Shown here: positions 169 to 13,881 of the stretch, piece after piece
How the letters are laid out: each line of letters begins with the position of its first letter
How positions within the stretch are numbered: position 1 is the stretch's first letter
Assembly (NCBI GenBank): GCA_031259625.1
Contig: JAIRLG010000087.1
Location: 1-14,098, forward strand
DNA from: Puniceicoccales bacterium
Lineage (GTDB): Bacteria; Verrucomicrobiota; Verrucomicrobiae; Opitutales; LL51
DNA: 14,098 nucleotides
Reading direction: 5' to 3'
Notes under the pieces: generated by a model
Database searches by the model: none
What the model was told of the DNA's origin: nothing
The model's input: only the letters and a program-made list of their open reading frames with translations
Program-made: the position numbers and the translations under genes

Positions 169-253
169 CCCGCTGTCCTGGATTCCGAAGGAATCGCCCA
201 CTTCGTGGGCAGCGGCCTAAAAATGAGAATTTTTAGGCCGCCAGGACAGCGGG
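169..253. repeat. Cloverleaf palindromic element, copy 1
   Basis: The outer stem CCCGCTGTCCTGG (169-181) pairs perfectly with 241-253 (13 bp). Inside are three hairpins: GATTCC-GAA-GGAATC (181-195), GCCCAC-TTC-GTGGGC (196-210) and a long arm 212-224/229-241 with loop GAGA. Arms abut with zero or one unpaired base, so the whole 85 nt can fold as a fully paired four-way junction. Four other elements in the window have the same plan. No T-run follows, so it is not a standard intrinsic terminator. The open frame running through it from 205 is not a credible start for fbaB. Confidence 0.85.
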
Positions 254-259
254 CGCCGC

Positions 260-319
260 GGGCAACACACTTGCCTACGGGCAACACATTTAATACGGGT
301 AACACATTTGCCTATTGCC
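260..319. repeat. Short tandem repeat, about 19-bp unit, three copies
   Basis: Three imperfect units start with GGGCAACACA or GGGTAACACA: 260-278, 279-296 and 297-319. The first and third continue with TTGCCTA. The array begins 6 nt after cloverleaf copy 1, and its last unit holds the -35 of the putative fbaB promoter. The role is unknown; it may be a slippage product or repeated operator half-sites. Confidence 0.6.
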
Positions 320-342
320 AAGACCGGGAAATTTCATTTAAT
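315..342 (+). promoter_or_regulatory. Putative sigma70-type promoter of fbaB
   Basis: TTGCCA (315-320, one mismatch to TTGACA) is followed by a 16-bp spacer and TTTAAT (337-342, one mismatch to TATAAT). The predicted start of transcription near 349 would leave only about 15 nt before the fbaB ATG. The local AT-rich patch stands out in otherwise GC-rich DNA. It is seen by pattern only. Confidence 0.45.
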
Positions 343-363
343 GGCCGAAAATCAATCGCTCTT

Positions 364-1413
364 ATGAACGCTCATATTCAGCACTTCATCCAGCGGGATC
401 CGCACAAGCTCGTCGAGTACCGCTGCAAGACGATTCCTGCGAAGGACCTGATACTTCCGGGGCCGGACTTCATCGACCGCGTCTGGCTGCATTCCGACCG
501 CTCCTGCAATGTTTTGAACAACCTGGCCCGCCTTTACGGCAGCGGACGGTTGGCCCATACGGGCTACGTCTCCATCCTGCCGGTGGACCAGGGGATCGAG
601 CACTCCGCCGGAGCGAGCTTTGGACCCAACCCGGACTACTTCGACCCGGAGAACATCGTGCGCCTCGGCCTGGAAGGGGGTTGCAATGCGGTCACCTCCA
701 CCCTGGGCGTCCTGGGCATCGTGAGCCGGAAATATGCCCACAAAATTCCCTTCATCGTAAAATTGAACCACAACGAGCTGCTGACTTATCCCAATAAATT
801 CGACCAGATCTACTTCGCCCAGGTGGAACAGGCCCAGGACATGGGGGCCGTCGGCGTTGGAGCCACCATCTACTTCGGCTCGGAAGAGTCCACCCGCCAG
901 ATTCAGGAGACCAGCGAGGCCTTTCAGCTCGCCCATGAGCTCGGCCTCCTCACGATCCTCTGGTGCTACCTCCGCAATCCCGCCTTCAAGGCGGACAAGG
1001 ACTACCACACGGCGGCGGATTTGACCGGCCAGGCGAACCACCTCGGAGCGACGATTCAGGCGGATATTTTGAAGCAGAAGCTGCCGACCAACAACGGCGG
1101 ATTCAAGGCCCTCAAGTTCGGTAAGACGCACGAAAAGGTCTACAGCCAGCTCTCCTCGGAGCATCCCATCGACCTGACCCGCTACCAGGTGGCCAATGGC
1201 TATATGGGGCGCACGGGCTTGATCAGCTCCGGCGGAGCCTCGGGGGAGAACGATTTTTCCGAGGCCGTCGAAACGGCCATCATCAACAAGCGGGCCGGAG
1301 GCATGGGTCTCATCTGCGGCCGCAAGGCCTTTCAGCGCCCCCTGAAGGAGGGCATCGAGCTCCTCCACACCATCCAGGACGTCTATCTGGAAAAGACCAT
1401 CACCCTGGCTTAA
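364..1413 (+). CDS. fbaB: Fructose-bisphosphate aldolase class I, DhnA/FbaB type
   Basis: This cytoplasmic enzyme cleaves fructose 1,6-bisphosphate to dihydroxyacetone phosphate and glyceraldehyde 3-phosphate, or runs in reverse in gluconeogenesis, through a lysine Schiff base. The 349-residue product is essentially the length of E. coli FbaB and resembles it throughout: [15 protein letters not shown] near residue 72, VKLNHNE near 132, [11 protein letters not shown] near 166, DLTGQANHL near 219 and [11 protein letters not shown] near 307. The likely Schiff-base lysine is K237 in [13 protein letters not shown] chose the ATG at 364 because upstream codons in the same frame run through cloverleaf copy 1 and tandem repeats and have no family similarity. 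No Shine-Dalgarno sequence precedes it. It is an ordinary host metabolic gene, not part of the phage cassette. Confidence 0.96.
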
Positions 1414-1492
1414 AAAACCTATCCCTCTGGCCCGAGAACAGGCCGTGGGTGGGGAAAATTTTCAAGAGTCGTCTCCAGGAGGGGGGCTCTTG

Positions 1493-1600
1493 GGGGCCGC
1501 CTTTGGCGGCGCGGAAAATAAAAAGGTCTTTTTATTTTCGCGCCGCAGGCCCGCGGCTCCGCCGCGGGCCCAGAGCCCGAAGGGCTCCAAAGGCGGCCCC
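1493..1600. repeat. Cloverleaf palindromic element, copy 2 (arms in reverse order)
   Basis: The outer stem GGGGCCGCCTTTGG (1493-1506) pairs perfectly with 1587-1600 (14 bp). Inside, in order, are a long arm 1507-1524/1529-1545 (17 bp with one bulged G at 1513, loop GGTC), a 10-bp hairpin 1548-1557/1561-1570 with loop TCC, and GAGCCC-GAA-GGGCTC (1573-1587). The long arm comes first here but last in the other four elements, as expected for the opposite orientation. The rest of the 1414-1768 spacer holds pyrimidine-rich DNA (1601-1660), a weak hairpin GCCGAG/CTCGGC near 1698-1719 and the promoter at 1732-1760. I see no gene in it. Confidence 0.85.
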
Positions 1601-1731
1601 ATACCCCGCCCACCCACCCCTCTTTTAGTTCTGAAAATCCAATTCCCCTGAGCCAAATCCCCGCCCCGGAAGCCTTTTCCTTCCTCAAACTTTCCAGCCG
1701 AGACCAACGAAGCTCGGCAGCCAATCCAGCC

Positions 1732-1760
1732 CTAACGCCTCACGCCAATCGGATTATAAT
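1732..1760 (+). promoter_or_regulatory. Putative promoter of the phage cassette with perfect TATAAT
   Basis: TATAAT at 1755-1760 is a perfect -10 hexamer in GC-rich DNA. A poor -35 (CTAACG, 1732-1737, three matches to TTGACA) lies 17 bp upstream. Transcription would start at about 1767, only one or two bases before the ATG at 1769, so the transcript could be leaderless. The weak -35 suggests help from an activator or another sigma factor. Confidence 0.45.
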
Positions 1761-1768
1761 CCCCCGCC

Positions 1769-2160: not shown

Positions 2161-2514
2161 ATGAAGGAGCCGAGAAATTTTCAGCACACCCTGGAGCGCC
2201 TGCGGAGGGCCCAGCTGCAGACCCGAGAGATACTGCAGTGCTGGGCACCCTCCCACGAGGCCGTGCAGGCCTCCCTCGCCTGCGCCTGGGAGCGCTTCTT
2301 CGAGCTCCTGCAGCAGCCGGAGGAGCTCTCGCTCGCCGACCTGAACACCGCCTCGGGCATACTCCAAAAGCTCTCGGCCTGCCACAGCCAGCTCTCGGCC
2401 CTGGAGGCGAAAAAGCACGAGGAATCCACAGGCGATGAGTCCCTGGAGCCTTCGAGTCCCCAGCTCTCACCGGAAATCCTCGAAGCCATCGAACGGCAGC
2501 TACAGCTGCTCTGA
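2161..2514 (+). CDS. Helical protein in the small-terminase position
   Basis: The 117-residue product appears almost wholly alpha-helical, with leucine- and glutamine-rich amphipathic stretches (QRLRRAQLQTREIL-like, ASGILQKLSACHSQLSALEAKK), and ends in IERQLQLL. It lies 5 nt upstream of the large terminase gene, the place where Mu-like phages carry gp27-type (DUF3486) packaging partners. I infer that it is the small terminase subunit or an equivalent DNA-recognition partner, but I see no clear helix-turn-helix and do not recognise the family by sequence. AGGA at 2151-2154, six bases before the ATG, is one of the few well-placed Shine-Dalgarno sequences in the window. Confidence 0.6.
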   Translation: MKEPRNFQHTLERLRRAQLQTREILQCWAPSHEAVQASLACAWERFFELLQQPEELSLADLNTASGILQKLSACHSQLSALEAKKHEESTGDESLEPSSPQLSPEILEAIERQLQLL

Positions 2515-2519
2515 AGCCC

Positions 2520-3908
2520 ATGCCCACCCGACGACATCCCTTTTTCCTCCCCTACCAGGAGCGCTGGATCCGGGACGAATCCCGGCTGAAAATCATGGAG
2601 AAATCCCGGCAAATCGGTATGAGCTGGGCCACGGCCTACCGGCTCGTCCGCCGGCACGCCGACCGCCGGCAGCGGCTCGACTCCTGGGTCGCCTCCCGGG
2701 ACGAGATTTCAGCCAAGCTCTTCCTCGAGGACTGCAAGTCCTTTCGGGACATCCTGCACACGGCGGCGCAGGACTTCGGCCACACCCTCCGCAGCGATGA
2801 GGGGCGGGACAGCAGCTACTCCCTCCGCTTCCGCAACCGCACGCAGATCCATTCGCTCTCCTCGAATCCCGACACCCAGGCCGGCAAGCGCGGCACGCGG
2901 GTGCTGGACGAGTTCGCCCTGCACCCGCAGGCGGAGCAGCTCTATAGCACCGCCCTCCCGGGCATCACCTGGGGCGGGCAGCTGGAAATTCTCTCGACCC
3001 ATCGGGATGCCGAGCACCTCTTCAACCGCCTGATCCAGGAGGTCCTGCACAACGGCAATCCCAAGCAGTTTTCCTACCACCGGGTCACGCTGGAGGACGC
3101 CCTGGAACAGGGCCTTCTGCCGCGCATTCAGGCAAAGCTCTCCGCCGAAGACCCACGGCGGGCGATGACGGAGGCGGACTACTACGAGCACGTCCGGCAG
3201 AGCTGCATCGACGAGGATTCCTTTCGGCAGGAGTACCTCTGCTGTCCCTTTCAGGAGGGCAATTCCTTCCTCCCACTCCCGTTGATCCGGGACTGCGAGT
3301 ACGCCGATGGCGAAGCCTGGGAGTACGGCCCGTCGGCCATCACACAGGACTGCTACCTCGGCATCGACATCGGTCGGGAGCACGACCTCAGCGTCTTCTG
3401 GCTCCTGGAAAAGGAAAAGGGCATCGCCCATACGCGCCAAATCCTCTGCGCGCAGCGAATGCGCTTTTCGGAGCAGGAAGTCCTCCTGAAATCCTTCTTA
3501 GCCCACCCCTCGCTGCGCCGTGTCTGCATCGACCAGAGCGGCATCGGGCGCCAGTTCACCGAACGGGCCATCGAACACTTCGGCTCCCACCGCGTCGAGG
3601 GCGTCACCTTCACTTCCGCCATCAAGGAACGGCTCGCCTACGAACTGCGACGGGCCTTCGAGCAGCGGCAGTTGAGAATTCCGGCCGAGCGCAGCATTCG
3701 GGACGACCTGCGCTCCGTCAAACGGGAGACCACCTTCGCCGGCAACATTCGCTTCTCGGCCGAGCGGAACAAGAACGGCCACGCCGACCGCTTCTGGGCC
3801 CTGGCCCTGGCCTGGCACGCCGGACAGAGTCCCATGGCCACCTCGTTTACCCATTTCACCCCCATTCCCTGGCACCAGTCTCACCATTCCTGGAGGGGAA
3901 GTCTTTAA
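2520..3908 (+). CDS. Phage terminase large subunit, Mu gp28-like
   Basis: This is the ATP-driven motor and nuclease that packages DNA into proheads. The 462-residue product has a variant Walker A EKSRQIGMSWA (about residues 27-37), typical of Mu gp28-type terminases rather than a classical GxxxxGKT. It has a Walker B-like TRVLDEFAL (about 127-134), then an RNase H-fold nuclease with acidic motifs GIDIG (D283), CIDQSG (D338) and HADRFWALALA (D423). All key residues are present and the frame is intact, so the enzyme looks functional. It starts 5 nt after the previous stop and ends 4 nt before the portal gene, consistent with one operon. Confidence 0.92.
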   Translation: MPTRRHPFFLPYQERWIRDESRLKIMEKSRQIGMSWATAYRLVRRHADRRQRLDSWVASRDEISAKLFLEDCKSFRDILHTAAQDFGHTLRSDEGRDSSYSLRFRNRTQIHSLSSNPDTQAGKRGTRVLDEFALHPQAEQLYSTALPGITWGGQLEILSTHRDAEHLFNRLIQEVLHNGNPKQFSYHRVTLEDALEQGLLPRIQAKLSAEDPRRAMTEADYYEHVRQSCIDEDSFRQEYLCCPFQEGNSFLPLPLIRDCEYADGEAWEYGPSAITQDCYLGIDIGREHDLSVFWLLEKEKGIAHTRQILCAQRMRFSEQEVLLKSFLAHPSLRRVCIDQSGIGRQFTERAIEHFGSHRVEGVTFTSAIKERLAYELRRAFEQRQLRIPAERSIRDDLRSVKRETTFAGNIRFSAERNKNGHADRFWALALAWHAGQSPMATSFTHFTPIPWHQSHHSWRGSL

Positions 3909-3912
3909 GCCT

Positions 3913-5136
3913 ATGAAATATTCTTCACAGATTTCCGACGGCCGCATCGCGCATTCCCTGCGCCTACGGTTCAATCCCATTCGGCAGTTGAATCCCGAGA
4001 CCCTGTCGCAGATCCTCGACAGCTTTTCCTCGGGATACCTGAAGCCGGCAGCCCTCGCCTGGGAAGCCATCGAGCGGCGGGATGACATCCTCCAGGGCGT
4101 CGCCGCCAAGCGCAAGAAGTCCGTCGCGCGCCTCCCCTGGGAAATCCTGAGCATCGACCATTCGCCCGAGGCCATGAGGCAGAAGGAGGCCCTGGAGTAT
4201 TTTTACAACAACCTTCGGGCGACCCATGCCTGTGACCGCAACATCTGCGGCGGCTTCGCCCTGCTGGTCAAGCAGATGATGGATGCCGTTGGGAAGAAAT
4301 ACGCCGTCCACGAAATCGTCTACCAGGAGCCGACAAAAAATGCCTCCGGAGACTTTCTCCTCTCCGCCGAATTCCGCTTCGTCCCGCTGTGGTTTTTCGA
4401 AAACCGCCAGGGGCATCTGCAGTTTTTGGAGCAGGAGGGCGCCCTGGAAGGCGTCGCGCTGGAGCCCGGTTCCTGGATGGTGACGCACGGGGACGGACTG
4501 ATGGAGGCCTGTTCCATCGCCTACCTCTTCAAGCACCTCCCCCTGCGGGATTGGCTCGTCTACTGCGAGCGCAACGGCATGCCCGGGGTTAAGGGAGTCA
4601 CCAACGCCCAGCCCGGAACCGAGGAGTGGGAGAGCGCCAAGTGCGCCGTCGAGTCCTTCGGGGCCGAATTCAATGCCCTGATGACGGCGGGGACGCAGAT
4701 CGAGGCCATCGACCTCAGCAGCCGTGGAGAACTGCCCTATCCCCCTCTGGTCGACCGCATGGATCGGGCGATGTCGGCCCTGTGGCGCGGCTCCGACCTC
4801 ACGACCCTGTCCCGCCAGGCCGGCACCGGCGCTTCCCTCCAGGGTGATGAGTGCATCCTGCTGGAGGAGGACGACGCCTGCACGATTTCCGAGACGCTGA
4901 ACCAGCAGGTCGACGTCCCGGTGCTGCGCTACCTCTTCGGCGAAGGGCCGGTCAAGGCCTACATCCGACTCATGCCCAAGACCCGTCGGGATCTGCAGGC
5001 AGAAATCCGCCTCTACCGCGAGCTCTACGACATGGGCATCTCCCTCTCCGCGGAAAAAATGCGGGAGCACTTCGGCATCCCCATCCCCGGCGAGGACGAA
5101 ATTACCCTGAAAAAACAGGAGGCGAGTACCCGATAA
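3913..5136 (+). CDS. Phage portal protein, DUF935 / Mu gp29 family
   Basis: This is the dodecameric ring at the capsid vertex through which DNA enters and leaves. The 407-residue product shows DUF935 features: an N-terminal region with LNPETLSQILDSFSSGYL, SVARLPWEI, the LVYCERNGMPG motif near residues 215-225 (the family has a similar conserved xxGMPxxxG stretch), and a C-terminal helical region followed by a short lysine-rich tail. It is somewhat shorter than Mu gp29, mainly at the C-terminus. The terminase-portal-protease order supports the call. A GGAGG at 3892-3896 is too far from the ATG (16 nt) to act as a normal ribosome binding site. No MuF-type (gp30) gene follows, which is unusual for this family. 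Confidence 0.88.
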   Translation: MKYSSQISDGRIAHSLRLRFNPIRQLNPETLSQILDSFSSGYLKPAALAWEAIERRDDILQGVAAKRKKSVARLPWEILSIDHSPEAMRQKEALEYFYNNLRATHACDRNICGGFALLVKQMMDAVGKKYAVHEIVYQEPTKNASGDFLLSAEFRFVPLWFFENRQGHLQFLEQEGALEGVALEPGSWMVTHGDGLMEACSIAYLFKHLPLRDWLVYCERNGMPGVKGVTNAQPGTEEWESAKCAVESFGAEFNALMTAGTQIEAIDLSSRGELPYPPLVDRMDRAMSALWRGSDLTTLSRQAGTGASLQGDECILLEEDDACTISETLNQQVDVPVLRYLFGEGPVKAYIRLMPKTRRDLQAEIRLYRELYDMGISLSAEKMREHFGIPIPGEDEITLKKQEASTR

Positions 5137-5143
5137 ATTTCTC

Positions 5144-6334
5144 ATGGACAAGGTTTTACAGGGAATCCCGTGGCCCGAGGCCACTCCGATTGGCTCGGCG
5201 GCCAGGCGCTGGCTCCGACTCAGTGCCTACGGCCATTACCCCCATCCGCAGGGGCTGCAGTGCATCGACCGCGCCGCCGCCCAGGCGATGGTGGAGCACT
5301 TCAAATCCTTCCGCGGGCGTCTGCGGCGCCGCTTCGGCGGCCTGCCGGTCTACATCGGCCATCCGGACGACCCCCAGCTCCGCCAACAGCCCGGGCATCA
5401 GGATACCCGCGCCTACGGGTGGATCCAGGACCTGGAGGCCCGGGAGGACGGGCTGCACGGGCTCGTCAAGTGGTCGGACGCCGGCCTGGAGCTCCTCCAC
5501 AATGCCTTTTTCAAGTTCTTCTCTCCGCGTTGGGAGATGCAGGCCATCGGGCCCGGGCAATTCAAACCCGTCCGCCTCCTGTCCATCGGCCTCACCAATT
5601 ACCCCAACATCCCGGGCGATGCGATCGCCAACCAGGGGGTGAACAGAGCAGAAGCACCGGCGCCCGCCATCCGAGAAGAAACTTCCCAAGAAAAGGTTTT
5701 CCAAGAAGAGGATATTCGAGAGAAGACTTCCCTTTCCCGAGAAAAGGATTTGCGAGAAGAGGCTTCCCGCGAAAAAGCTTCCGAAATACCTCCCAACCCT
5801 CCGGCTTCGGCCGACGACACACCCAGGGAAGGAATGGAGAATACGCCCAGGGAAGGGACGGAAGGCACGCTTAAGGAAGGGATGGAGGACGCGCCTAAAG
5901 AAAGGACGGAAGACGCGCCTGGGAAAGACACAGAGGACATGCCTAAGGAAGAAACGGAGAACGCACTTAGAAAAGAAACGGAGGACGCGCCTAAAGAAAG
6001 GACGGAGGACATGCCTAAGAAAGATACGGGGGCTTCCGCGGAGCTCGAGCACTTTCTGGCCCAGGGCCTAAGCGGAGGACATATCTTGCCCAACGAATGC
6101 GCCATATGGGCCCACCGCTACGGCGAAGATCCGGAAAGGGCCGGCGAGGAGATGCGGGCCCAGCGGCACGGACTCCACCTTCAGGCCCACAGCGCCTCGC
6201 TCCAGGGAGTTCATCCATCGGCCGTCTCCCGGGAACAGCTCCTCTCCCACGTCCACCGGCGCATCCGGGAATTCGGCGAGAGCTACACCGATGCCTGGGC
6301 CGCCGTACGCCAGTCCCATCCCCAGCTCTTTTGA
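5144..6334 (+). CDS. Capsid maturation protease with C-terminal scaffold, Mu gpI-like
   Basis: The 396-residue product has an N-terminal protease domain (about 1-165) with GLPVYIGHPDD (H73), FKFFSPRWE (S127) and SIGLTNYPNIPGD (about 147-159), a layout typical of Mu gpI-type prohead proteases; H73 and S127 are candidate catalytic residues. A low-complexity charged middle follows: residues about 177-214 rich in Arg/Glu/Ser/Lys, then nine octapeptide repeats at 226-297. A folded C-terminal domain (about 300-396) contains SGGHILPNE and helices. By analogy, the long C-terminal part acts as the scaffold around which capsid protein assembles, and is then degraded. The gene lies 7 nt after the portal gene and upstream of decoration and capsid genes. 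Confidence 0.82.
   Translation: MDKVLQGIPWPEATPIGSAARRWLRLSAYGHYPHPQGLQCIDRAAAQAMVEHFKSFRGRLRRRFGGLPVYIGHPDDPQLRQQPGHQDTRAYGWIQDLEAREDGLHGLVKWSDAGLELLHNAFFKFFSPRWEMQAIGPGQFKPVRLLSIGLTNYPNIPGDAIANQGVNRAEAPAPAIREETSQEKVFQEEDIREKTSLSREKDLREEASREKASEIPPNPPASADDTPREGMENTPREGTEGTLKEGMEDAPKERTEDAPGKDTEDMPKEETENALRKETEDAPKERTEDMPKKDTGASAELEHFLAQGLSGGHILPNECAIWAHRYGEDPERAGEEMRAQRHGLHLQAHSASLQGVHPSAVSREQLLSHVHRRIREFGESYTDAWAAVRQSHPQLF
5819..6034 (+). repeat. Nine tandem 24-bp units coding octapeptides in the scaffold region
   Basis: The units read TPREGMEN, TPREGTEG, TLKEGMED, APKERTED, APGKDTED, MPKEETEN, ALRKETED, APKERTED and MPKKDTGA (residues 226-297 of the protease/scaffold). The consensus is x-P-K-E-x-T-E-D, strongly charged and probably disordered or a charged helix. 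The frame is kept in all nine units. Copy number could vary by slippage without breaking the gene. Confidence 0.9.
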
Positions 6335-6355
6335 AAAAGCTTTTTTTATCTCATC

Positions 6356-6784
6356 ATGAAAATGAAATCCATACCCATCATCCTCTCCAACGTCGCCGGC
6401 GAGACCCATCGCCCGCACATCACCTATCGGGCGGGCGGGGCCATCCCACGCCACCGCCTCGTTCAGCTGTCCTCGGACGGAACGGCGGTCAGCGTCGCCG
6501 GAGCCGGTGATCAGCCCATCGGCCTGTCCACCGACGAGGCCGCTTTGGGCGAGAGCCTCGACATCGCCCTGCTGGGTTCCGCCGACACCCTCACGGCCCG
6601 GGCCAGCGGCAGCATCCAGGCCGGGGATATCCTGGTGCCGGCCGCCGAGGGTCGCGTCAAGACCCTGCCCACCGCCACCGGCAGCTACAGCCAAATCGGC
6701 ATCGCACTGCGGCCGGCCGTCAGCGATGCCCTGGTCGAGATCATGCCCTGCGTCCCCTGCCCGTACACGATCAGCGGTGAATAA
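6356..6784 (+). CDS. Capsid decoration / head stabilisation-like protein (DUF2190-like)
   Basis: The 142-residue product is small and beta-rich: alternating short strands with Gly/Ala turns (AGDQPIGLSTDEAALGESLDIALLG, then GDILVPAAEGRVKTL, then GSYSQIGIALRPA, then VEIMP). This pattern is typical of DUF2190-type or lambda gpD-like head decoration proteins, and the position just upstream of the major capsid gene agrees. Such proteins bind the expanded capsid surface and stabilise it after packaging. The start could be M1 (6356) or M3 (6362). No Shine-Dalgarno sequence is seen; the ATG is preceded by TCTCATC, the same context as the gene at 8962. Confidence 0.7.
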   Translation: MKMKSIPIILSNVAGETHRPHITYRAGGAIPRHRLVQLSSDGTAVSVAGAGDQPIGLSTDEAALGESLDIALLGSADTLTARASGSIQAGDILVPAAEGRVKTLPTATGSYSQIGIALRPAVSDALVEIMPCVPCPYTISGE

Positions 6785-6816
6785 CCCTTCCAATCAGCGG
6801 CAATTAACCCTTTCAA
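6771..6816. repeat. 23-bp imperfect duplication spanning the decoration gene stop
   Basis: Two adjacent 23-bp units, 6771-6793 and 6794-6816, match at 19 of 23 positions (TCAGCGG..., AACCCTT..., CAA). The first includes the last codons and the TAA stop of the decoration gene. The second lies wholly in the spacer before the capsid gene. The role is unknown. Confidence 0.75.
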
Positions 6817-6825
6817 CATCCTATT

Positions 6826-7800: not shown

Positions 7801-7820
7801 GGCCCCACCCGGCCCCCGTC

Positions 7821-7920
7821 CCGCCATGGCCCCCTTTGCTCCGCAAAGGGCGGCGTTCCTCCGGAACGCCGCGGGTCGGCCCCCTCGGCGGGGGCCGAGG
7901 GGGCCGACGGGCCATGGCGG
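7821..7920. repeat. Cloverleaf palindromic element, copy 3 (inside the phage cassette)
   Basis: The outer stem CCGCCATGGCCC (7821-7832) pairs perfectly with 7909-7920. Inside are CCCTTTGC-TCC-GCAAAGGG (7832-7850), CGGCGTTCC-TCC-GGAACGCCG (7851-7871) and a perfect 15-bp long arm 7875-7889/7894-7908 with loop GGGG. Only three junction bases (7872-7874) are unpaired. The upstream frame of the next gene is open through part of this element, but that is a consequence of GC content, not coding. Confidence 0.87.
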
Positions 7921-7936
7921 CAAAAAACACCTGTTT

Positions 7937-8004
7937 CCATCCGCCATTTTTCAGAAAATCCATACCCGCCATTAAAAATCCCCATCCGCCATTTTTCCAA
8001 AAAA
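7937..8004. repeat. Short tandem repeat, 22-23 bp unit, three copies
   Basis: Units at 7937-7959, 7960-7981 and 7982-8004 share CCAT(C/AC)CCGCCATT followed by T- or A-rich DNA. CAAAAAACAC also occurs twice around the array (7921-7930 and 8012-8021). The array begins 16 nt after cloverleaf copy 3 and fills the leader of the next gene. The A-rich DNA may hold a promoter, but I see no convincing hexamer pair. Confidence 0.65.
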
Positions 8005-8033
8005 ACAGCTTCAAAAAACACAGTTCCAAAACC

Positions 8034-8498
8034 ATGACACCCTGGATTGCGATTTCACCGGAAACGGTCTACGACTACCTGGCCGCGCCGCAGGTCGAGG
8101 TGCTCCGACACGCCACCCTTGCCCAAGGGCAGGCGGATCCCCTGCCGGAGATCATCCGGGACATCTGCGAGCAGATGCGCGCGGAGATCAGCGCCCAGCC
8201 GCAGAACCGGCTCGACCGCACGGCCCATACCATTCCGCCCCACCTGAAGGCGACGGCCTGCTGGCTCATCATCGAGGCGGCCCAGACCCGCATTCCCGGT
8301 CTGAAGGCGACCGAGGACCAGATCCGCCTGGCGGAACAGGCTCGCCAGCGACTCCAGCGCATCGCCCAGGGGGAACTGCCCCTCGGGCAGCCGGACACCG
8401 TCGACACCAGCGGCACCTACCGACGCCCGGGGGCCCGCATCGACGTCCTCCACCGGCGGCGAGCCCAGGCCACCGGCCACACCCTCAGCGGATTTTGA
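8034..8498 (+). CDS. Mu gp36-like head completion protein (DUF1320)
   Basis: The 154-residue product starts MTPWIAISPETVYDYLAAPQ and contains DPLPEIIRDICEQMRAEIS, a long helical middle with LKATACWLIIEAAQTRIPG, and a C-terminal SGTYRRPGARIDVLHRRR tail. The pattern of short N-terminal strand, helical bundle and extended tail fits the DUF1320/Mu gp36 family of head-tail connector proteins that attach below the portal. I chose the ATG at 8034 because upstream codons in the frame belong to cloverleaf copy 3 and the tandem repeats. No Shine-Dalgarno sequence is seen. The stop is one base before the next start, so translational coupling is likely. Confidence 0.72.
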   Translation: MTPWIAISPETVYDYLAAPQVEVLRHATLAQGQADPLPEIIRDICEQMRAEISAQPQNRLDRTAHTIPPHLKATACWLIIEAAQTRIPGLKATEDQIRLAEQARQRLQRIAQGELPLGQPDTVDTSGTYRRPGARIDVLHRRRAQATGHTLSGF

Positions 8499-8499
8499 A

Positions 8500-8952
8500 A
8501 TGCAGCACCGAGCACCCAGTGTCCTGGAGGCCCTCCAGCGGGAGGTTTACGAGACCCTGCGCCACATCGGCGGCTTCCGGGAGCTGCCGATCCACTGCGG
8601 CTCCCCCAGCCACTTCGAGGCCCAGCTCCGCCAGCGGGCCGAGATGGGCAGCGGCCTTCAGCTCTACGTCCATCCGCCCATTCCACTGCGCATCGAGGAA
8701 GGTCTGGGCGGCCCGCTCTTCGACGAACTCGACCTCTGCGTCGAGGTGCTGGAATATTCCCTCAGCAACACCAGTGCCTGGAGCGCCATCGCCGTCGCCG
8801 AGGAGGTCTGCCGGCAGCTCCACGGACTCGCCCTCGCCCCACCGGCCCTGCAGGGGCAGCTGGTCTGCCGACCGGACAAACCCTGGGACTACGCCTTCGA
8901 GGACAGTCCCAACCGCCTCCGGCTCCACTTCACGGCCACCGGCAGTCTCTAA
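8500..8952 (+). CDS. Neck / tail-terminator-position protein
   Basis: The 150-residue product sits where Mu-like phages carry gp37-type (DUF1834) tail terminators. Visible features are an N-terminal helix (VLEALQREVYETLRHIGG), a central strand pair around LCVEVLEYSLSNTS (about 87-100) and a helix AIAVAEEVCRQLHG (about 105-118). The strand-then-helix order resembles the small alpha/beta fold of tail-terminator and tail-completion proteins, which cap the tail tube or join it to the head. The assignment rests on order, size and this pattern, not on a recognised family motif. The start lies one base after the previous stop. Confidence 0.55.
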   Translation: MQHRAPSVLEALQREVYETLRHIGGFRELPIHCGSPSHFEAQLRQRAEMGSGLQLYVHPPIPLRIEEGLGGPLFDELDLCVEVLEYSLSNTSAWSAIAVAEEVCRQLHGLALAPPALQGQLVCRPDKPWDYAFEDSPNRLRLHFTATGSL

Positions 8953-8961
8953 ATTCTCATC

Positions 8962-9366
8962 ATGAAAATCACCTTCGGTTCCCTCTCCCTCGCCGCCGGA
9001 CTGGAGTTCGGCGAGTCCCCCTACGAGCTCAGGATTCAGGGCCAGTGCCAGGTGCAGATCGCGGAGCGCATCCGCGGCGAGGAGGTCCGGGCCTTCGACC
9101 GCGGGAATCTGCAGACCCAGCTCAGCTTCCGGGTCAAGCGCAGGCATGATTCCGCCGAAGCAGCCCAGGCCTATGCCCTGTCCCACGCCGCCGCCCTCGC
9201 CCGGCAGAGCGGCCCCCTGCGGCTCATCAACGAGCCCGGCGGGACGAGCTACACCCTCTCCGACGCTGCGGTCACGCGGGTGGAATCCTCCAGTTCCCAC
9301 AACATCTCCTTCCACAGCTACCAGATGGTCGGGGGTAAATTCACCGCCTCCACGCAACTTTTCTGA
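8962..9366 (+). CDS. Small tail-associated protein, family not recognised
   Basis: The 134-residue product is beta-rich with one helix: it opens MKITFGSLSLAAGLEF, has NLQTQLSFRVKRRHDSAEAA, an alanine-rich helix AAQAYALSHAAALARQ (about 67-82), and ends in strands SYTLSDAAVTRVESSSSHNISFHSYQMVGG. This resembles small tail or distal-tail structural domains found just upstream of fibre genes. I do not recognise a named family. The start context TCTCATC-ATGAAAAT is identical to that at 6356. It is followed by a 32-nt spacer with a tandem duplication. Confidence 0.55.
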   Translation: MKITFGSLSLAAGLEFGESPYELRIQGQCQVQIAERIRGEEVRAFDRGNLQTQLSFRVKRRHDSAEAAQAYALSHAAALARQSGPLRLINEPGGTSYTLSDAAVTRVESSSSHNISFHSYQMVGGKFTASTQLF

Positions 9367-9396
9367 GAACAACGACGCCTTTTCCAAGAACAACGA
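9358..9396. repeat. 18-bp imperfect duplication spanning the end of the tail gene
   Basis: CTTTTCTGAGAACAACGA (9358-9375) is repeated as CTTTTCCAAGAACAACGA (9379-9396), 16 of 18 identical with a 21-bp period. The first copy contains the TGA stop of the upstream gene. The second replaces TG by CA and ends two bases before the ATG of the fibre gene. The role is unknown. Confidence 0.75.
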
Positions 9397-9398
9397 TT

Positions 9399-10820
9399 AT
9401 GCCTACACTTCAACGTTTTCCCGTCCGCATCGCCGCGCTGATCGATTCCTTCGACCAGCCACAGGATGTCTACCGGCACATGGCGCCGCAGTTCTGGCGC
9501 GGCAATGACCTGGAGTTCCAGATCGGAATCCTTCGGGACAACCAGCCCATCGACATCTCCAACCTGAGCGCCATCCACCTGGCCATCAAGGCCCTCAACG
9601 CCGACGGAACGGCCCCCTCCGGCCAGCAGCCGAACCTCATGGCCGGCCACGACACGGCCCCGCAGAACATCGGCCTCAGCGATTGGAAAAACGGCAGCCA
9701 GCAGCACGCGACGATCCGCTTTTCCGCCGAGGAGAGCGCCCTTCCGGCCGGCCACTACTGGCTGAGCATCTGGGCGACGACCCAGGACGCACCGGAGAAG
9801 GTGCTGACCCTGACCGCCGGCCACATTCGGGTGCTGGAAAACGGCGGCCTCTCGCTGGCCGCACCGGAGCCGCAGGCGCTCTACTACGACGCCGAGACCT
9901 GCGATGCGCGCTATCTCCTGAAAGAGGACGACGTCACTCCGCTGATCGACACCGAGGCCCTGCGTACTTCCCTCGAGCTCGGCACGCTGGCGGAACAGGA
10001 CGCCGATGCGGTCAGCATTTCCGGCCATGTGGACATCACCAGTGGCTCCATCGTCCAGATCAGCGACCTGTCCATCGCCGACGGCGGGACGGGCGCCTCG
10101 ACGGCCGCCGAGGCCTTTCAAAACCTCTCGCCGCTGACGACCAAGGGGGATCTCCTCAGCTCCGACGGGAGTTCCCACGGCCAGCGCCTGGCGGTGGGAA
10201 CGGCAGGACAGCTGCTGTGCGCCCAGCCGACCGCCAGCCAAGGCCTGGCCTGGGTCACCCGCCCGGGCCAGCCCCTGGCCCAGCAGAACATCGACACGGG
10301 CACGCCCAGCGTCGATTTCCTCCAGATCTTCGATGGCGCGAAGTTCCACCACTATAAACTGTACGTGCAGCACAATACCCGCTCCCCCGTCGGCAGCCAG
10401 ATGCAGCTGCTGCTGGGCGCCTCAGCCCTGGGCACGGCTCCATGGCTGGAAACCGCGGCGGACTACCGCTGGCAGTGTTACGACATCCGGGGCAAGACGA
10501 TCCGCGCGGAATCCACAGCGGATGTCGGCGAACTACCCTATTTTCCCCTGGGCAACAGCAGCGAGAGCTACCGCGCCGGCAATGGTTTCCTGCACCTGAA
10601 CATCGACATCTGGAACGACGGCATCGCCGGCCATGCGGTGGCGGTGGCGGCCATCGCCCATTACCTGTGGGTCAGCGAGACGAACCAGGACAGTGGCATG
10701 GGCTACTACTGGGGCAGTTTCCTCAACTCCGGCAACGACGTCGTCGATTCCCTGCGCTTCCAGAGCGCCAGCGGCGGCAACATCAGCGGGGGTTCCTACA
10801 GCTTCTACGGCATCGAATGA
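9399..10820 (+). CDS. Receptor-binding tail fibre protein
   Basis: This 473-residue product is a modular adhesin. Residues about 1-150 form a beta-sandwich-like N-terminal domain (FWRGNDLEFQIGILRDNQP, HYWLSIWATT) resembling BppU-type baseplate attachment domains. Residues about 160-225 are a linker with LGTLAEQDADAVSISG, a common fibre motif. Residues about 229-290 carry the shaft motif GGTGASTAAEAFQNL...TTKGDLL...RLAVGTAGQLL, seen in very many phage fibres. Residues about 300-473 form a C-terminal head rich in Trp/Tyr/Gly that ends GGNISGGSYSFYGIE, a typical final strand of phage binding domains. It should act at the virion tip and decide host range. The stop overlaps the start of the next gene (ATGA). 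Confidence 0.85.
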   Translation: MPTLQRFPVRIAALIDSFDQPQDVYRHMAPQFWRGNDLEFQIGILRDNQPIDISNLSAIHLAIKALNADGTAPSGQQPNLMAGHDTAPQNIGLSDWKNGSQQHATIRFSAEESALPAGHYWLSIWATTQDAPEKVLTLTAGHIRVLENGGLSLAAPEPQALYYDAETCDARYLLKEDDVTPLIDTEALRTSLELGTLAEQDADAVSISGHVDITSGSIVQISDLSIADGGTGASTAAEAFQNLSPLTTKGDLLSSDGSSHGQRLAVGTAGQLLCAQPTASQGLAWVTRPGQPLAQQNIDTGTPSVDFLQIFDGAKFHHYKLYVQHNTRSPVGSQMQLLLGASALGTAPWLETAADYRWQCYDIRGKTIRAESTADVGELPYFPLGNSSESYRAGNGFLHLNIDIWNDGIAGHAVAVAAIAHYLWVSETNQDSGMGYYWGSFLNSGNDVVDSLRFQSASGGNISGGSYSFYGIE

Positions 10821-10942
10821 TGGACGAAGGCATTCGGGCGGAACTGCAGGCCCTTTACCAATACCTGCGGGAACAGGAAGCCGCGACGCAGGCGGCGCTC
10901 CAGGAGCTCAGCTCGCGCCTCGACAATTTAAGAAATTTTTAG
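10817..10942 (+). CDS. 41-residue coiled-coil protein
   Basis: ATG at 10817 overlaps the fibre stop (ATGA), and a second in-frame ATG follows at 10820. The product begins MMDEGIRAELQALYQYL and ends LQELSSRLDNLRNF, a single amphipathic helix with leucine heptads (A/L at about every third to fourth residue). The stop is 4 nt before the hub gene. Coding is supported by tight spacing on both sides and the helical pattern. It may be a trimerising or linker peptide for the fibre, or a small chaperone; no family is recognised. Too short for most gene finders. Confidence 0.65.
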   Translation: MMDEGIRAELQALYQYLREQEAATQAALQELSSRLDNLRNF

Positions 10943-10946
10943 GAAA

Positions 10947-12743
10947 ATGTGGTCACTGACTTACCAGAACCAGCGGCGTTCCTTCGCCGATTGGGGGATT
11001 TCCCGCGCCACGCGGGTGCTGAAGAACCAGGCCACCGACACCCTCACGCTGGAGAGGGACGGAGAGTATCCCGGTGCCTTCGCCTTCGGAGAGCCAATTC
11101 GGATCCACCGCGGCGAGGAGCTCTGGTTCCAGGGCATCGTGACGGAAACCCCCTCCTTTGACCGCGCGCGCAAGGCCCATCAGCGCTGCATCATCTCCGG
11201 CCCCTGGTGGTTCCTGGAGCAGACGATTTACCAGCAGAAGTGGAAGGAGAGCAGCGACACTTCGTCCGAGGATAGTCCGCTGCAGGATGTCTACAAGAGC
11301 CACCTGATCCTCGGCCAGGACGAAAACGGTCAGGCCCTGAGCCTGGGCCAGCAGATCGGCGATGTCCTTGCTTATCTCTCCCAGGAAGCCGGCGTGGCCA
11401 TCGCCCTCGACCCGCAGCTGGACCTGCCGATCTTCATCCCCTACGACGAGTGCAAAGACCTGTCCTGTGCCGAGGTCATCCGGCGGCTCCTGCGCTGGGC
11501 ACCGGACACGGTCAGTTTTTTCGACTACACGGGCGAAACTCCTTGCCTCTACCTGAAGCGCCAGTCCCAACTGGAAGCGCTGAGCCTGGATCTAAAAGAC
11601 CCCCGGCTCGGCCTCCAGGAGCTCCGGGTGCGCCCGCGCCATGACCTGCAGATTCCGGCCGTCGTGCTGAAGTTCGAGAAGACGCACACGGTCAACGGTC
11701 GGGTCTGGTCGACGCTGGAGACCCAGGCCTGGCCGGCCGGCGCCGATGGTACGGCCCCCCGCTCCCTCGTCATGACCATCGAACTGGAGGGCTCCCGCGC
11801 CACCTACGTCCGGCAGAAGATCGGCTCGGAGCCCATCGACCTGCACAGCGTCAGCTGGTGGAAGGCGCACCTGCCCGGTCTCGAGAACATCTCGGCCGAA
11901 GCCATCACGGTCGAGGAAGCCGAGCGCACAGGCGAGTTGCCCCGGGAGCTGACGGAGGGCTCCGTCGCCAGCTGGATGAACGCCTCCGCCGAGACAGCCC
12001 TGATCCAGGCCCGCATTTCCTACACCAGCGACGAGGAATCGGTCTACCGCAAGCGCGTCACGGTCAAGCTGCGCACGACGGATGCCCTGCCCAAGACCTA
12101 CCAATTCCTGTCCGCCTACACCTCGGAGGAAGACGCGCCGAGCGGCCTCGCGGAACAGCTCTACGCCGGTGTCAGTCCCCTGACCTTCGAGGGCCAGCTC
12201 CACCTGGAAACCCGGGAGGTCTCGGGCCATCCCATGGGGAAGAAGCTGAACCTCCTCGGCGGCGACACGGCCTGGGCGACGATGCAGGCGGCGGTACAGG
12301 AAGTCACAGAGGAGCTCGGCAGCGGCCGGACCCAGATCCGCTTCGGCCCCGCCCAGCACCTGGGTGCCGCCGATCTGGTCGAGCTGACCCGGAGCAACCG
12401 CCACCGCTTCTCGGTGCGCAATGCCCTGGCCCGCAGCAGCGGCGAGGCGGAGGGCAGCGGCTGCGTCGAGCAGGGAAAGTCCGCGCCGCTGGAGAATACG
12501 GCCTACGGCCCCGGGAAATACCAGAAGATGATCTTCATCCATCCCGAGGCCCCCACGGCCCGCAGCATCACCATCGATGCCAGTGCCCTCTCCCGCGACC
12601 TCTCCGTCCAGCTGCGGGAGGAAAATGTCTGTGAATCCGGACTCGTCAAAAAGCGCCTCTCGCTGGCCAGCGAAGCTTTTCTGGAAGAGAGCTCGGATTC
12701 CACTCCGGAAGAAAGTTCGGACTCCAACACCACAGGCTCATGA
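10947..12743 (+). CDS. Probable tail hub / baseplate protein
   Basis: The 598-residue product opens with a beta-rich domain (MWSLTYQNQRRSFADWG, TLTLERDG, FGEPIRIHRGEELWFQGIV) like the first barrel of phage hub proteins of the gpD/gp27/gp44 class. IISGPWWFLEQTIYQQKW follows at about 82-99, then a serine/acidic insert (about 101-113). The middle has VIRRLLRWAPDTVSFFDY and LQIPAVVLKFEKTHTVNG, again usual in hub-like proteins. The C-terminus is an acidic low-complexity tail, EESSDSTPEESSDSNTTGS, encoded by the start of the 56-bp repeat region. I infer that it joins the tail tube to the fibre. The stop overlaps the first micro-ORF start by ATGA. Confidence 0.6.
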   Translation: MWSLTYQNQRRSFADWGISRATRVLKNQATDTLTLERDGEYPGAFAFGEPIRIHRGEELWFQGIVTETPSFDRARKAHQRCIISGPWWFLEQTIYQQKWKESSDTSSEDSPLQDVYKSHLILGQDENGQALSLGQQIGDVLAYLSQEAGVAIALDPQLDLPIFIPYDECKDLSCAEVIRRLLRWAPDTVSFFDYTGETPCLYLKRQSQLEALSLDLKDPRLGLQELRVRPRHDLQIPAVVLKFEKTHTVNGRVWSTLETQAWPAGADGTAPRSLVMTIELEGSRATYVRQKIGSEPIDLHSVSWWKAHLPGLENISAEAITVEEAERTGELPRELTEGSVASWMNASAETALIQARISYTSDEESVYRKRVTVKLRTTDALPKTYQFLSAYTSEEDAPSGLAEQLYAGVSPLTFEGQLHLETREVSGHPMGKKLNLLGGDTAWATMQAAVQEVTEELGSGRTQIRFGPAQHLGAADLVELTRSNRHRFSVRNALARSSGEAEGSGCVEQGKSAPLENTAYGPGKYQKMIFIHPEAPTARSITIDASALSRDLSVQLREENVCESGLVKKRLSLASEAFLEESSDSTPEESSDSNTTGS

Positions 12744-12799
12744 GCTCCCACAAAGCTCTTCTCCATCGGGACTCCCATACTACAGCCATAGGCTCATGA
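12740..12799 (+). CDS. Micro-ORF 1 of three in the 56-bp repeat
   Basis: Nineteen codons: MSSHKALLHRDSHTTAIGS. The ATG overlaps the hub gene stop, and the TGA overlaps the next ATG (ATGA at both ends). Whether it is translated is unknown; coupling from the hub gene is plausible. Confidence 0.4.
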   Translation: MSSHKALLHRDSHTTAIGS

Positions 12800-12855
12800 G
12801 TTTCCACGAAGCCTTCCTCCGCCGGGACTCCAGCACCACAGCCGCCAACCCATGA
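12796..12855 (+). CDS. Micro-ORF 2 of three in the 56-bp repeat
   Basis: Nineteen codons: MSFHEAFLRRDSSTTAANP. It differs from micro-ORF 1 at many bases but has no indel and no early stop. It overlaps its neighbours by ATGA at both ends. Confidence 0.4.
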   Translation: MSFHEAFLRRDSSTTAANP

Positions 12856-12911
12856 GTTCCTTTGAAGTTTTTCTCTACCGAAACTCCAGCATTATAGCCA
12901 TCAACCCATGA
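12852..12911 (+). CDS. Micro-ORF 3 of three in the 56-bp repeat
   Basis: Nineteen codons: MSSFEVFLYRNSSIIAINP. The first ten residues equal those of the following gene (MSSFEVFLYR), and the first 29 bases are identical. Its TGA overlaps the ATG of that gene. Confidence 0.4.
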   Translation: MSSFEVFLYRNSSIIAINP

Positions 12912-13483
12912 GTTCCTTTGAAGTTTTTCTCTACCGGGTCAGCGAGGCCGGTGTTCCGCATCATATCCCCTACGAGCCCTACGGTGAGCCGGCGACGCTG
13001 CGCGATCTGTCGACCCAGGAAGTGGCGAATCTCTACTGGCTGCTCGAAACGCTGACCGTCGACTACCACTACAGCATCAACGGCATCGGTCTGCAGCGCC
13101 ACTACGTGATCTCCGGCACGGACACCCCGCCCATCCAGCGGCCGAAGTTCCCGTCCTTCCTCCTGAGCCACATGGCCTACGACCCGAACTACAACTACCC
13201 CTATCGGGGCTCCCTCCACTTCGGCACGATTTACCAGGATCCCGCCCAGGCCGGTCGCTACGGGCTCCCGCTCAGCCTCTACGAGGAGGACGGTACCGGC
13301 TACAGTCTCTTCTGCCTGACGACCGCTCCTCAGCACAGCAGTCTGACGGAGCGCATTCCCTACGACTTCAGCTTTCTGGGCAAGGCCCTTTCCCTCTACC
13401 TCTACTACAACCCCAGCTACGTCTCGAATCCCTCCCTGGACAGCGTCACCCTCACGGCCAGCTTTTTCTCCAACGACGCCTAG
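12908..13483 (+). CDS. Hypothetical protein at the end of the tail cassette
   Basis: The 191-residue product is not recognised. It starts MSSFEVFLYRVSEAGVPHH, has a helical STQEVANLYWLLETL (about 35-49), then is rich in Tyr, Pro and Ser with strands such as GRYGLPLSLYEEDGTGYSLFCL and ends VTLTASFFSNDA, a beta-strand-like terminus. No signal peptide or membrane segment is seen. The position after fibre and hub genes suggests a tail-tip, fibre-accessory or decoration protein, but that is inference. There is no Shine-Dalgarno sequence; the only visible route to initiation is reinitiation from the micro-ORF array through ATGA. Confidence 0.7.
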   Translation: MSSFEVFLYRVSEAGVPHHIPYEPYGEPATLRDLSTQEVANLYWLLETLTVDYHYSINGIGLQRHYVISGTDTPPIQRPKFPSFLLSHMAYDPNYNYPYRGSLHFGTIYQDPAQAGRYGLPLSLYEEDGTGYSLFCLTTAPQHSSLTERIPYDFSFLGKALSLYLYYNPSYVSNPSLDSVTLTASFFSNDA

Positions 13484-13537
13484 GGTTTCCCCAGCAATAC
13501 CTAGGTCTCCCGGCCATTCTCCGGCCGTTGATTCTCC

Positions 13538-13643
13538 GGCCGCCGCCTTGGGGCCCTCCGGGCCCAGGCCCGCTCCGCGGGCCGTGAGGAGGAGGAAGGG
13601 GCGGCGTAGCCGCCCCTTCCTTCTCCTCACCAAGGCGGCGGCC
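13538..13643. repeat. Cloverleaf palindromic element, copy 4
   Basis: The outer stem GGCCGCCGCCTTGG (13538-13551) pairs perfectly with 13630-13643 (14 bp). Inside are GGGCCC-TCC-GGGCCC (13551-13565), GGCCCGC-TCC-GCGGGCC (13567-13583) and a 22-bp long arm 13584-13605/13609-13630 with loop GTA and a single G-T wobble. One unpaired base (13566) lies between the short arms. CCGGCC(A/G)-TTCT-like motifs are repeated just upstream (13510-13540). Confidence 0.88.
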
Positions 13644-13653
13644 CCACAACGAC

Positions 13654-13741
13654 GTACAGTGCCAACGATAGCGGCACACAGTGCCAACGATAGCGGCACA
13701 CAGCGCCAACCACAACGGCCTACAGCGCCAACGGTGGGGGC
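13654..13741. repeat. 22-bp tandem repeat, four copies
   Basis: Units 13654-13675, 13676-13697, 13698-13719 and 13720-13741 share ACAG(T/C)GCCAAC. The first two are nearly identical (ACAGTGCCAACGATAGCGGC); the last two diverge after the core. The array starts 10 nt after cloverleaf copy 4. A 22-bp period puts the units on about the same face of the helix, so a repeated protein-binding site is possible, as is simple slippage. Confidence 0.85.
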
Positions 13742-13784
13742 TTCGTCGGTGGCTGGCCGACTGAGGGTATGCAGGGCCGAGGGT

Positions 13785-13881
13785 GGGGGCTGGCTTTCGA
13801 TTCCTTCGGAATCGTGCCCGCTGCGCGGGCTGCCTGGAGGAAAAGGACAGAGTCCTTTTCCTCCAGGCAAAGCCAGCCCCC
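13785..13881. repeat. Cloverleaf palindromic element, copy 5
   Basis: The outer stem GGGGGCTGGCTTT (13785-13797) pairs perfectly with 13869-13881. Inside are CGATTCC-TTC-GGAATCG (13798-13814), GCCCGC-TGC-GCGGGC (13816-13830) and a perfect 18-bp long arm 13831-13848/13852-13869 with loop AGA. One base (13815) is unpaired. The first short arm has the same GATTCC/GGAATC stem as copy 1, and the second is close to those of copies 1, 2 and 4. Confidence 0.88.

Follow-up and report, generated by a model that had tools for sequence, protein, structure and literature searches.

Parvovirus-type terminal palindromes, which lie at genome ends and act with a replication protein, have a closing stem around two internal arms. 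The small double-hairpin elements of Allomyces mitochondria, for which there is reportedly evidence of mobility, consist of two hairpins side by side with no closing stem, and the attC sites of integrons carry the core pair RYYYAAC/GTTRRRY. The attC sites are described as poorly conserved in sequence and as recombined in the form of a folded single strand (PMC2727003). REP repeats are described as palindromes of 20–40 bp tagged with GTAG or CGTC; together with REPIN and BIME they are short, many-copy, intergenic and thought to be non-autonomous, and the processing of folded single-stranded DNA by TnpA_REP (RAYT) provides a model mechanism (PMC8266576, PMC3733652). MITE-type repeats (Correia/NEMIS, ERIC and CIR) are dispersed, structured, non-autonomous units of ~100–200 bp; in the review of Delihas, most pair their ends into a single long stem loop, TIR and target duplications being frequent, and CIR consists of two arms plus a linker (PMC2229807).

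The elements described here share the short, palindromic, many-copy and intergenic character of the REP group and the dispersed, structured character of the MITE-type repeats, but they are closed three-arm units of 68–121 nt, in which an outer stem encloses the arms, and they show no target duplication. In 338 end windows from 169 elements REP tags are not in excess (GTAG 5, CTAC 7, CGTC 14 and GACG 10, against a background 44–60 nt away of 4, 4, 14 and 10); the exception is a subfamily in genome G016, where CGTCT is found in the left flank of 15/26 copies. Like attC sites they are poorly conserved in sequence, but the attC core pair is present in 0/169 elements. The Allomyces elements differ in being mitochondrial and in having two hairpins without a closing stem. 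Parvovirus-type termini are similar in that a closing stem encloses small internal palindromes, whereas the cloverleafs have three arms and are internal and dispersed. The descriptions that we found of bacterial interspersed repeats involve single hairpins, paired hairpins or one long stem, and none has a closed three-leaf plan.

Cloverleaf elements in the window

The window is a stretch of 14,098 nt from a Puniceicoccales bacterium. It contains five elements, and the coordinates and three-arm plan given in the original prediction are correct for all five on both strands, with outer stems of 12–13 bp:

Element 1, 169..253, + strand: outer stem 169–180/242–253 (12 bp); short arms 181–195 and 196–210; long arm 212–241; R1 64.0 bits
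Element 2, 1493..1600, − strand: outer stem 1493–1505/1588–1600; long arm 1506–1546 (one-base bulge); shorter arms 1548–1570 and 1573–1587; R1 73.2 bits
Element 3, 7821..7920, + strand: outer stem 7821–7832/7909–7920; arms 7833–7849 and 7850–7872; long arm 7875–7908
Element 4, 13538..13643, + strand: outer stem 13538–13550/13631–13643; short arms 13551–13565 and 13567–13583; long arm 13584–13630 (one mismatch by Watson–Crick pairing); R1 66.0 bits
Element 5, 13785..13881, + strand: outer stem 13785–13796/13870–13881; short arms 13798–13814 and 13816–13830; long arm 13831–13869; R1 93.6 bits

All five fold with z-scores of −9.8 to −12.0, a stability reached by 0/200 shuffles, and the two strands fold about equally well. 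A strict perfect-stem scanner recovers four of the five and finds no three-arm structure in 20 dinucleotide shuffles; it misses element 2, which has a one-base bulge in the long arm and is recovered by the covariance model. Element 2 is inverted relative to the other four, and on the minus strand its arms follow the same short, short, long order. The proposal that structure rather than sequence is conserved was overstated: element 3 does have another sequence, but the other four fit one covariance model, the alignment of which has a conserved core of approximately GCTGNCTTTG, the arms and CAAAGNCAGC. Element 3, which is absent among the R1 matches listed, belongs to a second sequence family with a GCCATGGCC/GCGATGGCC core; in the alignment of this second family the long arms match poorly. 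The expectation of an element in every gene-free gap over 100 bp did not hold, with two of six such gaps empty (10821–10946 and 12744–12907).

Counterparts of several window elements occur elsewhere. Element 1 has orthologs upstream of an aldolase gene in G001 and G002. The G001 ortholog of element 2 is identical at 106/108 positions, and at the equivalent site in G003 there is a copy whose long arm is entirely different. Element 3 separates the capsid gene from the next phage gene, and cloverleafs are present at the equivalent site in L002 (17205) and L003 (14900). Close copies of element 5 are found at L098:5714, L102:9335 and L107:6826. An origin from phage was considered and set aside: four IMG/VR loci (L222–L225) with terminase or capsid relatives of 49–64% identity are without a cloverleaf by the scanner.

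A large, clade-limited family

The strict scan found 68 copies in the 317 kb of one relative (G001) and 77 in the 484 kb of another (G002), or one copy per 4.7 kb and one per 6.3 kb; shuffles, run with N removed and with a shorter maximum length, gave none. Intergenic gaps hold 119 three-arm elements compared with 0 in 20 shuffles. The original prediction had proposed a covariance-model scan, and had named a lack of further copies, or the formation of such structures by shuffled spacers, as evidence against it; the family proved to be large, with abundant further copies, and shuffled spacers formed none.

The family is also clade-limited. The covariance model matches many times in 4/4 genomes examined from the family of the closest relative and in one more among 132 genomes of the order, and a phylum-wide search found that closest relative alone among 240 genomes; the genomes compared are fragmentary, incomplete MAGs. 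Units are 68–121 nt long and three-armed in 93/93 cases, all preselected as three-armed by the scanner. Several sequence-unrelated families share this one architecture, namely those with the GCTGNCTTTG core and the GCGATGGCC core, the GGGGCCCCGGGACG type and the G070/G006 types.

Pairing and loops

Pairing is nearly perfect despite differing stem sequences. In the 150 best model matches 6051/6325 stem cells (95.7%) are Watson–Crick, and among the remainder G-T cells (80) are only modestly commoner than A-C cells (57), in a model that favors Watson–Crick pairs because it was built from perfectly paired copies. Of 44 pairs, 36 have changed on both sides, in copies that were chosen for pairing. 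Between orthologs, broken stem pairs are nearly as frequent as compensated ones, with 11 broken and 13 compensated, or 18 and 24 when compared reciprocally. Stems of kept orthologs change less than their flanks, in a set biased toward slow change because orthologs were picked by score.

The short arms obey a loop rule: of the 300 loops that they form in the 150 best matches, 272 follow C-(G/A)NA-G or the complement C-TN(C/T)-G. When only C-G-closed triloop hairpins are counted, the rule holds for 272/284 in elements, 103/206 outside detected elements in G001 and G002, and 19/71 in 66 control loci. These loops are of the stable DNA-triloop type; a C-G closing pair is reported to stabilize a d(GCA) triloop hairpin by 1.9 kcal/mol relative to a G-C pair (PMC5815330). 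Judged from the pairing counts and these loop sequences, the constraint looks like one that acts on DNA.

Evidence on mobility

Near-identical copies occur at different places, with 18 same-genome pairs over 90% identical. Both flanks are at background in 10 of these pairs (eight within the 95% level and two more within the 99% level), while in the other eight one flank or both lie above the 99% level. Sequence identity between copies does not always end at the outer stem; in the 10 nt outside it, identity is 0.46 compared with 0.30 for background, and therefore some units extend past the stem or sit in larger duplications. Direct repeats of at least 3 nt flank a perfect outer stem in 2/127 elements, where ~1.2 are expected, the other 50 of 177 having no recognized core, lying too near an end or containing N.

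The content of orthologous gaps differs between genomes. Syntenic G002 gaps contain a clear ortholog for 9 of 26 G001 elements and none for 17. Alignments were too diverged to yield a base-exact empty site. Some copies have stayed in place between flanks that are ~71% identical, and some are kept in three genomes. The idea of a mobile, non-autonomous family is thus borne out as far as the dispersal of near-identical copies and the occurrence of ortholog gaps with and without a copy; on the other side, no mobilizing enzyme was found and movement was not observed.

Search for a mobilizing enzyme

The RAYT/HUH-type transposase suggested in the original prediction was not seen in intact form: Y1/RAYT-type matches number 0/4 in G001, G002, G016 and G070 (incomplete MAGs), and the seven in G003 all have internal stops. 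The carriers thereby differ from genomes with RAYT-served REPs. Reverse transcriptases, IS110 Transposase_20, serine recombinases and Rep_trans are each found in 0/5 genomes. DDE_Tnp_1 matches are present in four of the five, the exception being G002, and tyrosine recombinases number one to three per genome. Typing of 3/10 tyrosine recombinase matches gave two XerD above the cut-off and one XerC/D-like below it, with the integron-integrase models below the cut-off. In G070 and G016 a model match has a tyrosine recombinase gene nearby; this looked suggestive but was dropped because the genes typed as XerD or Xer-like and elements are dense. No intact candidate common to carriers was seen in the five genomes, and no transposase-like protein has at least three copies at 50% identity or more among 662 proteins called in stretches of five genomes, by gene calling that misses genes.

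Origin of the elements

One possibility is that the elements are transcribed and act as regulators, mRNA-end stabilizers or RNase III sites, a kind of role reportedly proposed for NEMIS. The strong fold and the two-sided changes would fit such structured RNAs, and bacterial MITE transcripts are described as highly paired stem loops in the review of Delihas (PMC2229807). The G-T excess is only modest, however (in a model that is itself biased toward Watson–Crick pairs), both strands fold comparably, and the window has 0 Rfam matches at gathering scores and 0 ARAGORN tRNA or tmRNA genes. The elements are mostly intergenic (overlap with called genes is at most 20 bp in 168/177). Their orientation, which argues against an RNA role, is independent of neighboring genes, 39 lying with and 49 against codirectional genes. 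Gaps of at least 150 bp are filled in 33/50 convergent, 77/150 codirectional and 22/53 divergent cases, so that divergent gaps are filled too, and we regard structured RNA as improbable. The preference for convergent gaps would be expected of bidirectional intrinsic terminators between genes, but in the element's own orientation the positions 4–10 nt outside the core have T at 395/889 on the left and A at 333/889 on the right. The flanks are therefore rich in T ahead of the element and in A behind it, the reverse of what a terminator would show on either strand; with divergent gaps filled and 0/14 terminator-like sites in the window overlapping an element, terminators are highly improbable.

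Retained copies might instead be extruded as cruciforms to which junction or nucleoid proteins (HU, RuvA or gyrase, for example) bind, organizing the chromosome, with dispersal secondary. High density, the retention of some copies at the same site in three genomes and the slower change of ortholog stems favor such sites, but the choice of orthologs by score biases toward slow change, the sequence family is limited to few genomes and 17 of the 26 G001 copies are without a clear ortholog, making this reading rather unlikely. Alternatively, with no moving enzyme at all, template switching and break repair could create palindromes, perfect them and occasionally copy them elsewhere. Template switching is described as homogenizing arms and inverting spacers (PMC8794818; PMC8604942). 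Symmetric changes in arm length, inverted loops, the lack of a common intact transposase in the five genomes and the flank sequence common to some near-identical pairs point this way, but a fixed three-arm order, a shared junction core, the loop rule and the 10 of 18 near-identical pairs with unrelated flanks would be left unexplained, and a purely mutational origin seems unlikely.

The reading we prefer, by a narrow judgment in its favor, is that the cloverleafs are mobile but non-autonomous elements of ~70–120 bp that are read in the form of folded DNA, dispersed by a shape-recognizing trans-acting enzyme and maintained by template switching. The outer stem would be the end of the unit in many copies, and either strand, single-stranded or extruded, could fold into a closed cloverleaf around a four-way junction. 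An enzyme acting in trans would recognize this folded DNA through its shape and junction core and insert the unit elsewhere in intergenic DNA, leaving no target duplication. Between moves, template switching during replication would copy one arm onto the other, keeping stems near-perfect, altering both arms together and sometimes inverting loops; the both-side changes and inverted loops seen between copies match the template-switch footprints of PMC8794818. Weighing against this reading are the eight near-identical pairs with similar flanks, the lack of an intact mobilizer common to the five genomes and of a base-exact empty site, the copies that have stayed in place, and the near parity of broken and compensated stem pairs. 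Since sequence-unrelated families share one architecture, the mobilizer would read shape, and the elements could represent a new class of mobile DNA in which the closed three-arm cloverleaf itself, a folded four-way junction rather than sequence ends, is recognized; this further step is doubtful, and we offer it tentatively.

A closed three-arm DNA family with one copy per few kb and several sequence families would add a new architecture. The cloverleafs allow tests of whether DNA can be moved by enzymes according to its folded shape, and of whether template switching, not selection, is the keeper of near-perfect palindromes. These repeats may be a main source of intergenic change where the tested transposase families are few or broken.

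Fold and distribution of the elements

The five elements of the window share the three-arm cloverleaf fold of the original prediction, in which an outer stem encloses two shorter hairpins and one long hairpin:

169-253, element 1
1493-1600, minus orientation, element 2
7821-7920, element 3, a member of a second sequence family
13538-13643, element 4
13785-13881, element 5

Their DNA folding free energies range from -39 to -62 kcal/mol, with z-scores of -9.80 to -11.95 and 0 of 200 shuffles as stable, and the opposite strand folds likewise (z -10.0 to -12.2). A scanner requiring a perfect outer stem of at least 7 bp around consecutive hairpins recovers four of the five (the one missed has a bulge in its long arm) and no two-arm or four-arm structures in the window; 20 window shuffles gave no three-arm and one two-arm structure. 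An element had also been stated to lie in every gene-free gap longer than 100 bp, but two of the six such gaps are without one. Between elements 4 and 5 lies a 22-bp tandem repeat (3.5 copies, 13656-13733).

Relatives were sought with the aldolase gene adjoining element 1 (364-1413). The closest among the best 80 of 548 confirmed loci are L001, L002 and L003 (97, 93 and 87%), from Puniceicoccales MAGs whose source we suspect, from isolate labels, to be the termite gut; they hold 3, 4 and 1 three-arm elements, respectively. The remaining 77 loci gave one three-arm match (L051, AT-rich, with a 7-bp outer stem) and three two-arm matches, and one shuffle of each locus gave two matches in all.

The same aldolase gene adjoins, within the reach of L001–L003, the phage head cassette found at 2161-13483 of the window (terminase, Mu-type portal, protease, cement and capsid). 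Identity to these loci is 75-97% for terminase, portal and capsid, near the 87-97% of the aldolase. The cassette looks vertically inherited and may be a domesticated cluster or one resembling a gene transfer agent. Immediately before its last gene, 56-bp tandem repeats (12730-12936) resemble the start region of that gene, ATG included.

Structural scanning of related genomes found 68 three-arm elements in 317 kb of G001 (the closest relative), 77 in 484 kb of G002, 14 in 147 kb of G003, 7 in 118 kb of G016, 9 in 106 kb of G070, 2 in 59 kb of G006 and 0 in 55 kb of G010; matches to R1, the covariance model of the main sequence family, guided the choice of stretches in G003, in G016 and for part of G070, and the densities there are not genome averages. 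Five shuffles of each of the seven stretch sets contained no three-arm match. Two-arm matches number 0-3 per genome (6 in the five shuffles together), and two of the three four-arm matches listed are three-arm elements recounted. Shuffled spacers gave no such nested perfect stems: the 279 intergenic gaps of G001 and G002 (151 kb) hold 119 three-arm elements versus 0 in 20 shuffles per gap.

R1 was built from 44 elements showing both-side changes at 36 of 44 pairs, a figure that comes from copies selected for pairing and is reached by 0 of 500 shuffles. The predicted further copies are abundant: among no more than 150 scored candidates per genome, R1 matches 149 in G001, 127 in G002, 120 in G003 and 146 in G016, where one element can count on both strands. 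It matches many times in all four genomes examined from the family of G001. Among 15 genomes from the aldolase list, G001–G003 have many matches, G006 and G010 one weak match each and ten none. With stricter filters and evenly drawn samples, 5 of 132 genomes match across the order (G001, G002, G003, G016 and, with 2 matches, G070) and 1 of 240 across the phylum, namely G001. Because R1 is sequence-aware, these limits apply to the sequence family rather than to the architecture; three-arm units with different sequences occur in G070 and G006. The cloverleaf elements are a real, clade-limited family.

Anatomy and level of constraint

When all copies are read in one orientation, the outer stem is followed by a short arm (6-7 bp in 88/93), a second arm (6-10 bp in 84/93) and a long arm (12-21 bp in 84/93), with 0-8 unpaired bases. 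The long-arm loop of a second-family cloverleaf at about 2.6-2.9 kb of L088 has about 35 nt, as if arms could hold cargo. The outer stem of the main family has a conserved inner part, about GCTGNCTTTG...CAAAGNCAGC. A core was recognised in 127 of 177 G001/G002 elements; in these, the next three to five pairs outward are variable and mostly still pair (0.95/0.93 at d = 1, 0.88/0.74 at d = 3, background level from d = 6), and past these only a T-rich left and an A-rich right side are visible.

Short-arm loops of the 150 best R1 matches are C-GNA-G or C-TNC-G in 208 of 300 cases, and 272 of 300 if C-ANA-G and C-TNT-G are included; the background for GNA plus TNC within CNNNG is 15%. Among C-G-closed triloop hairpins, the rule holds for 19/71 in 66 control loci and for 103/206 outside detected elements in G001 and G002, a set that may include undetected copies. 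d(GNA) triloops with a C-G closing pair are described as a stable DNA motif (PMC5815330). The loop is found in both strand senses, and therefore no single strand is clearly favoured.

The 6325 stem cells comprise 6051 Watson-Crick, 80 G-T, 57 A-C and 137 other combinations, a tally enriched for pairing since it uses the best matches of R1, itself built from perfectly paired copies. A DNA-level constraint predicts such near-equal numbers of G-T and A-C. Element orientation is independent of gene direction (39 with, 49 against), and every gap type is occupied: gaps of at least 150 bp are filled in 77/150 codirectional, 33/50 convergent and 22/53 divergent cases. Overlap with called genes is seen for 9 of 177 elements, on gene calls of our own that miss some genes.

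Upkeep of pairing

Twelve ortholog comparisons, which are not independent and omit queries unfoldable by the strict scanner (including element 2), gave 458 unchanged stem pairs, 13 that still pair after changes on both sides, 11 broken and 11 gapped; the reciprocal comparisons gave 441, 24, 18 and 12 for these classes. Arm length can change symmetrically (L088:2500 versus L117:9296). Across 77 non-independent element pairs with an identity of 82% or more, loops whose flanking arms are equal were exact reverse complements in 6 cases, nearer the reverse complement in 9, singly substituted in 76 and unchanged in 88; of the G016 copies, 2 of the 23 that were scored carry an inverted long-arm loop. 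Both-side changes, symmetric lengths and inverted loops are the kind of footprint that template switching is expected to leave (PMC8794818). This process can keep stems near-perfect without selection; the loop rule and the fixed arm order are left unexplained by it.

A G016 subfamily of near-alike copies (e.g. L219:4069-4172, L218:1941-2044) has conserved flanks, left about CGTCTCCG...GGCGGG and right CCGAAT.CTCCCGAG. The left-flank motif is inverted and on the right side at L214:9894-9999 and, by eye, apparently also at L217:2341-2444.

Dispersal and possible movers

Eighteen same-genome element pairs are more than 90% identical. Flank comparisons between unlike elements, 1153 in number, set the 95% level at 22 and the 99% level at 27; 8 pairs have both flanks within the 95% level and 2 more have them within the 99% level. 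The proposed non-autonomous dispersal thus fits 10 of 18 pairs, but in the other 8 at least one flank exceeds the 99% level; the strongest likeness, L117:6994/L149:17922 (right flank 194), could come from a larger duplication. Over the 10 nt outside the stem, the near-identical pairs have an identity of 0.46 versus 0.30. Many copies are therefore alike only to near the outer stem (e.g. L091:2141, L091:11604, L107:6576), but some units include slightly more. No target duplication adjoining the 127 G001/G002 elements with a recognised core was found.

Comparison of orthologous gaps, as originally proposed, revealed both shared and unshared sites: a syntenic G002 gap exists for 26 G001 elements, of which 9 have a clear ortholog there and 17 have none, at a threshold score of 90 that counts strongly diverged orthologs as none and with 3 more elements excluded for unaligned flanks over 700 bp. 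Some copies last at one place; element 3 has a same-place cloverleaf in L002 and L003. The site of element 2 is occupied in L003 by a copy with a wholly different long arm.

The suggested HUH/RAYT-type transposase did not emerge as a common partner in the five genomes searched (G001, G002, G003, G016 and G070): all 7 Y1_Tnp matches are in G003 (L081–L087), every one with internal stops, and the other four genomes have none. RVT_1, Transposase_20, Resolvase and Rep_trans gave no match in the five. DDE_Tnp_1 matched 1, 0, 3, 9 and 1 times and Phage_integrase 2, 2, 2, 3 and 1 times, respectively; of three Phage_integrase matches typed, two are XerD and one is Xer-like. Tyrosine recombinases are the one enzyme family, of those searched, that all five genomes share. 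MAGs often lack repeated genes, and the absence of an enzyme is for that reason weak evidence.

The matches listed in the open-licence literature, a scope outside which most subscription papers fall, include no description of like repeats, and the family could not be matched to any described one. The cloverleaf elements are best read as non-autonomous mobile DNA that acts as folded DNA and is spread by a putative mover.
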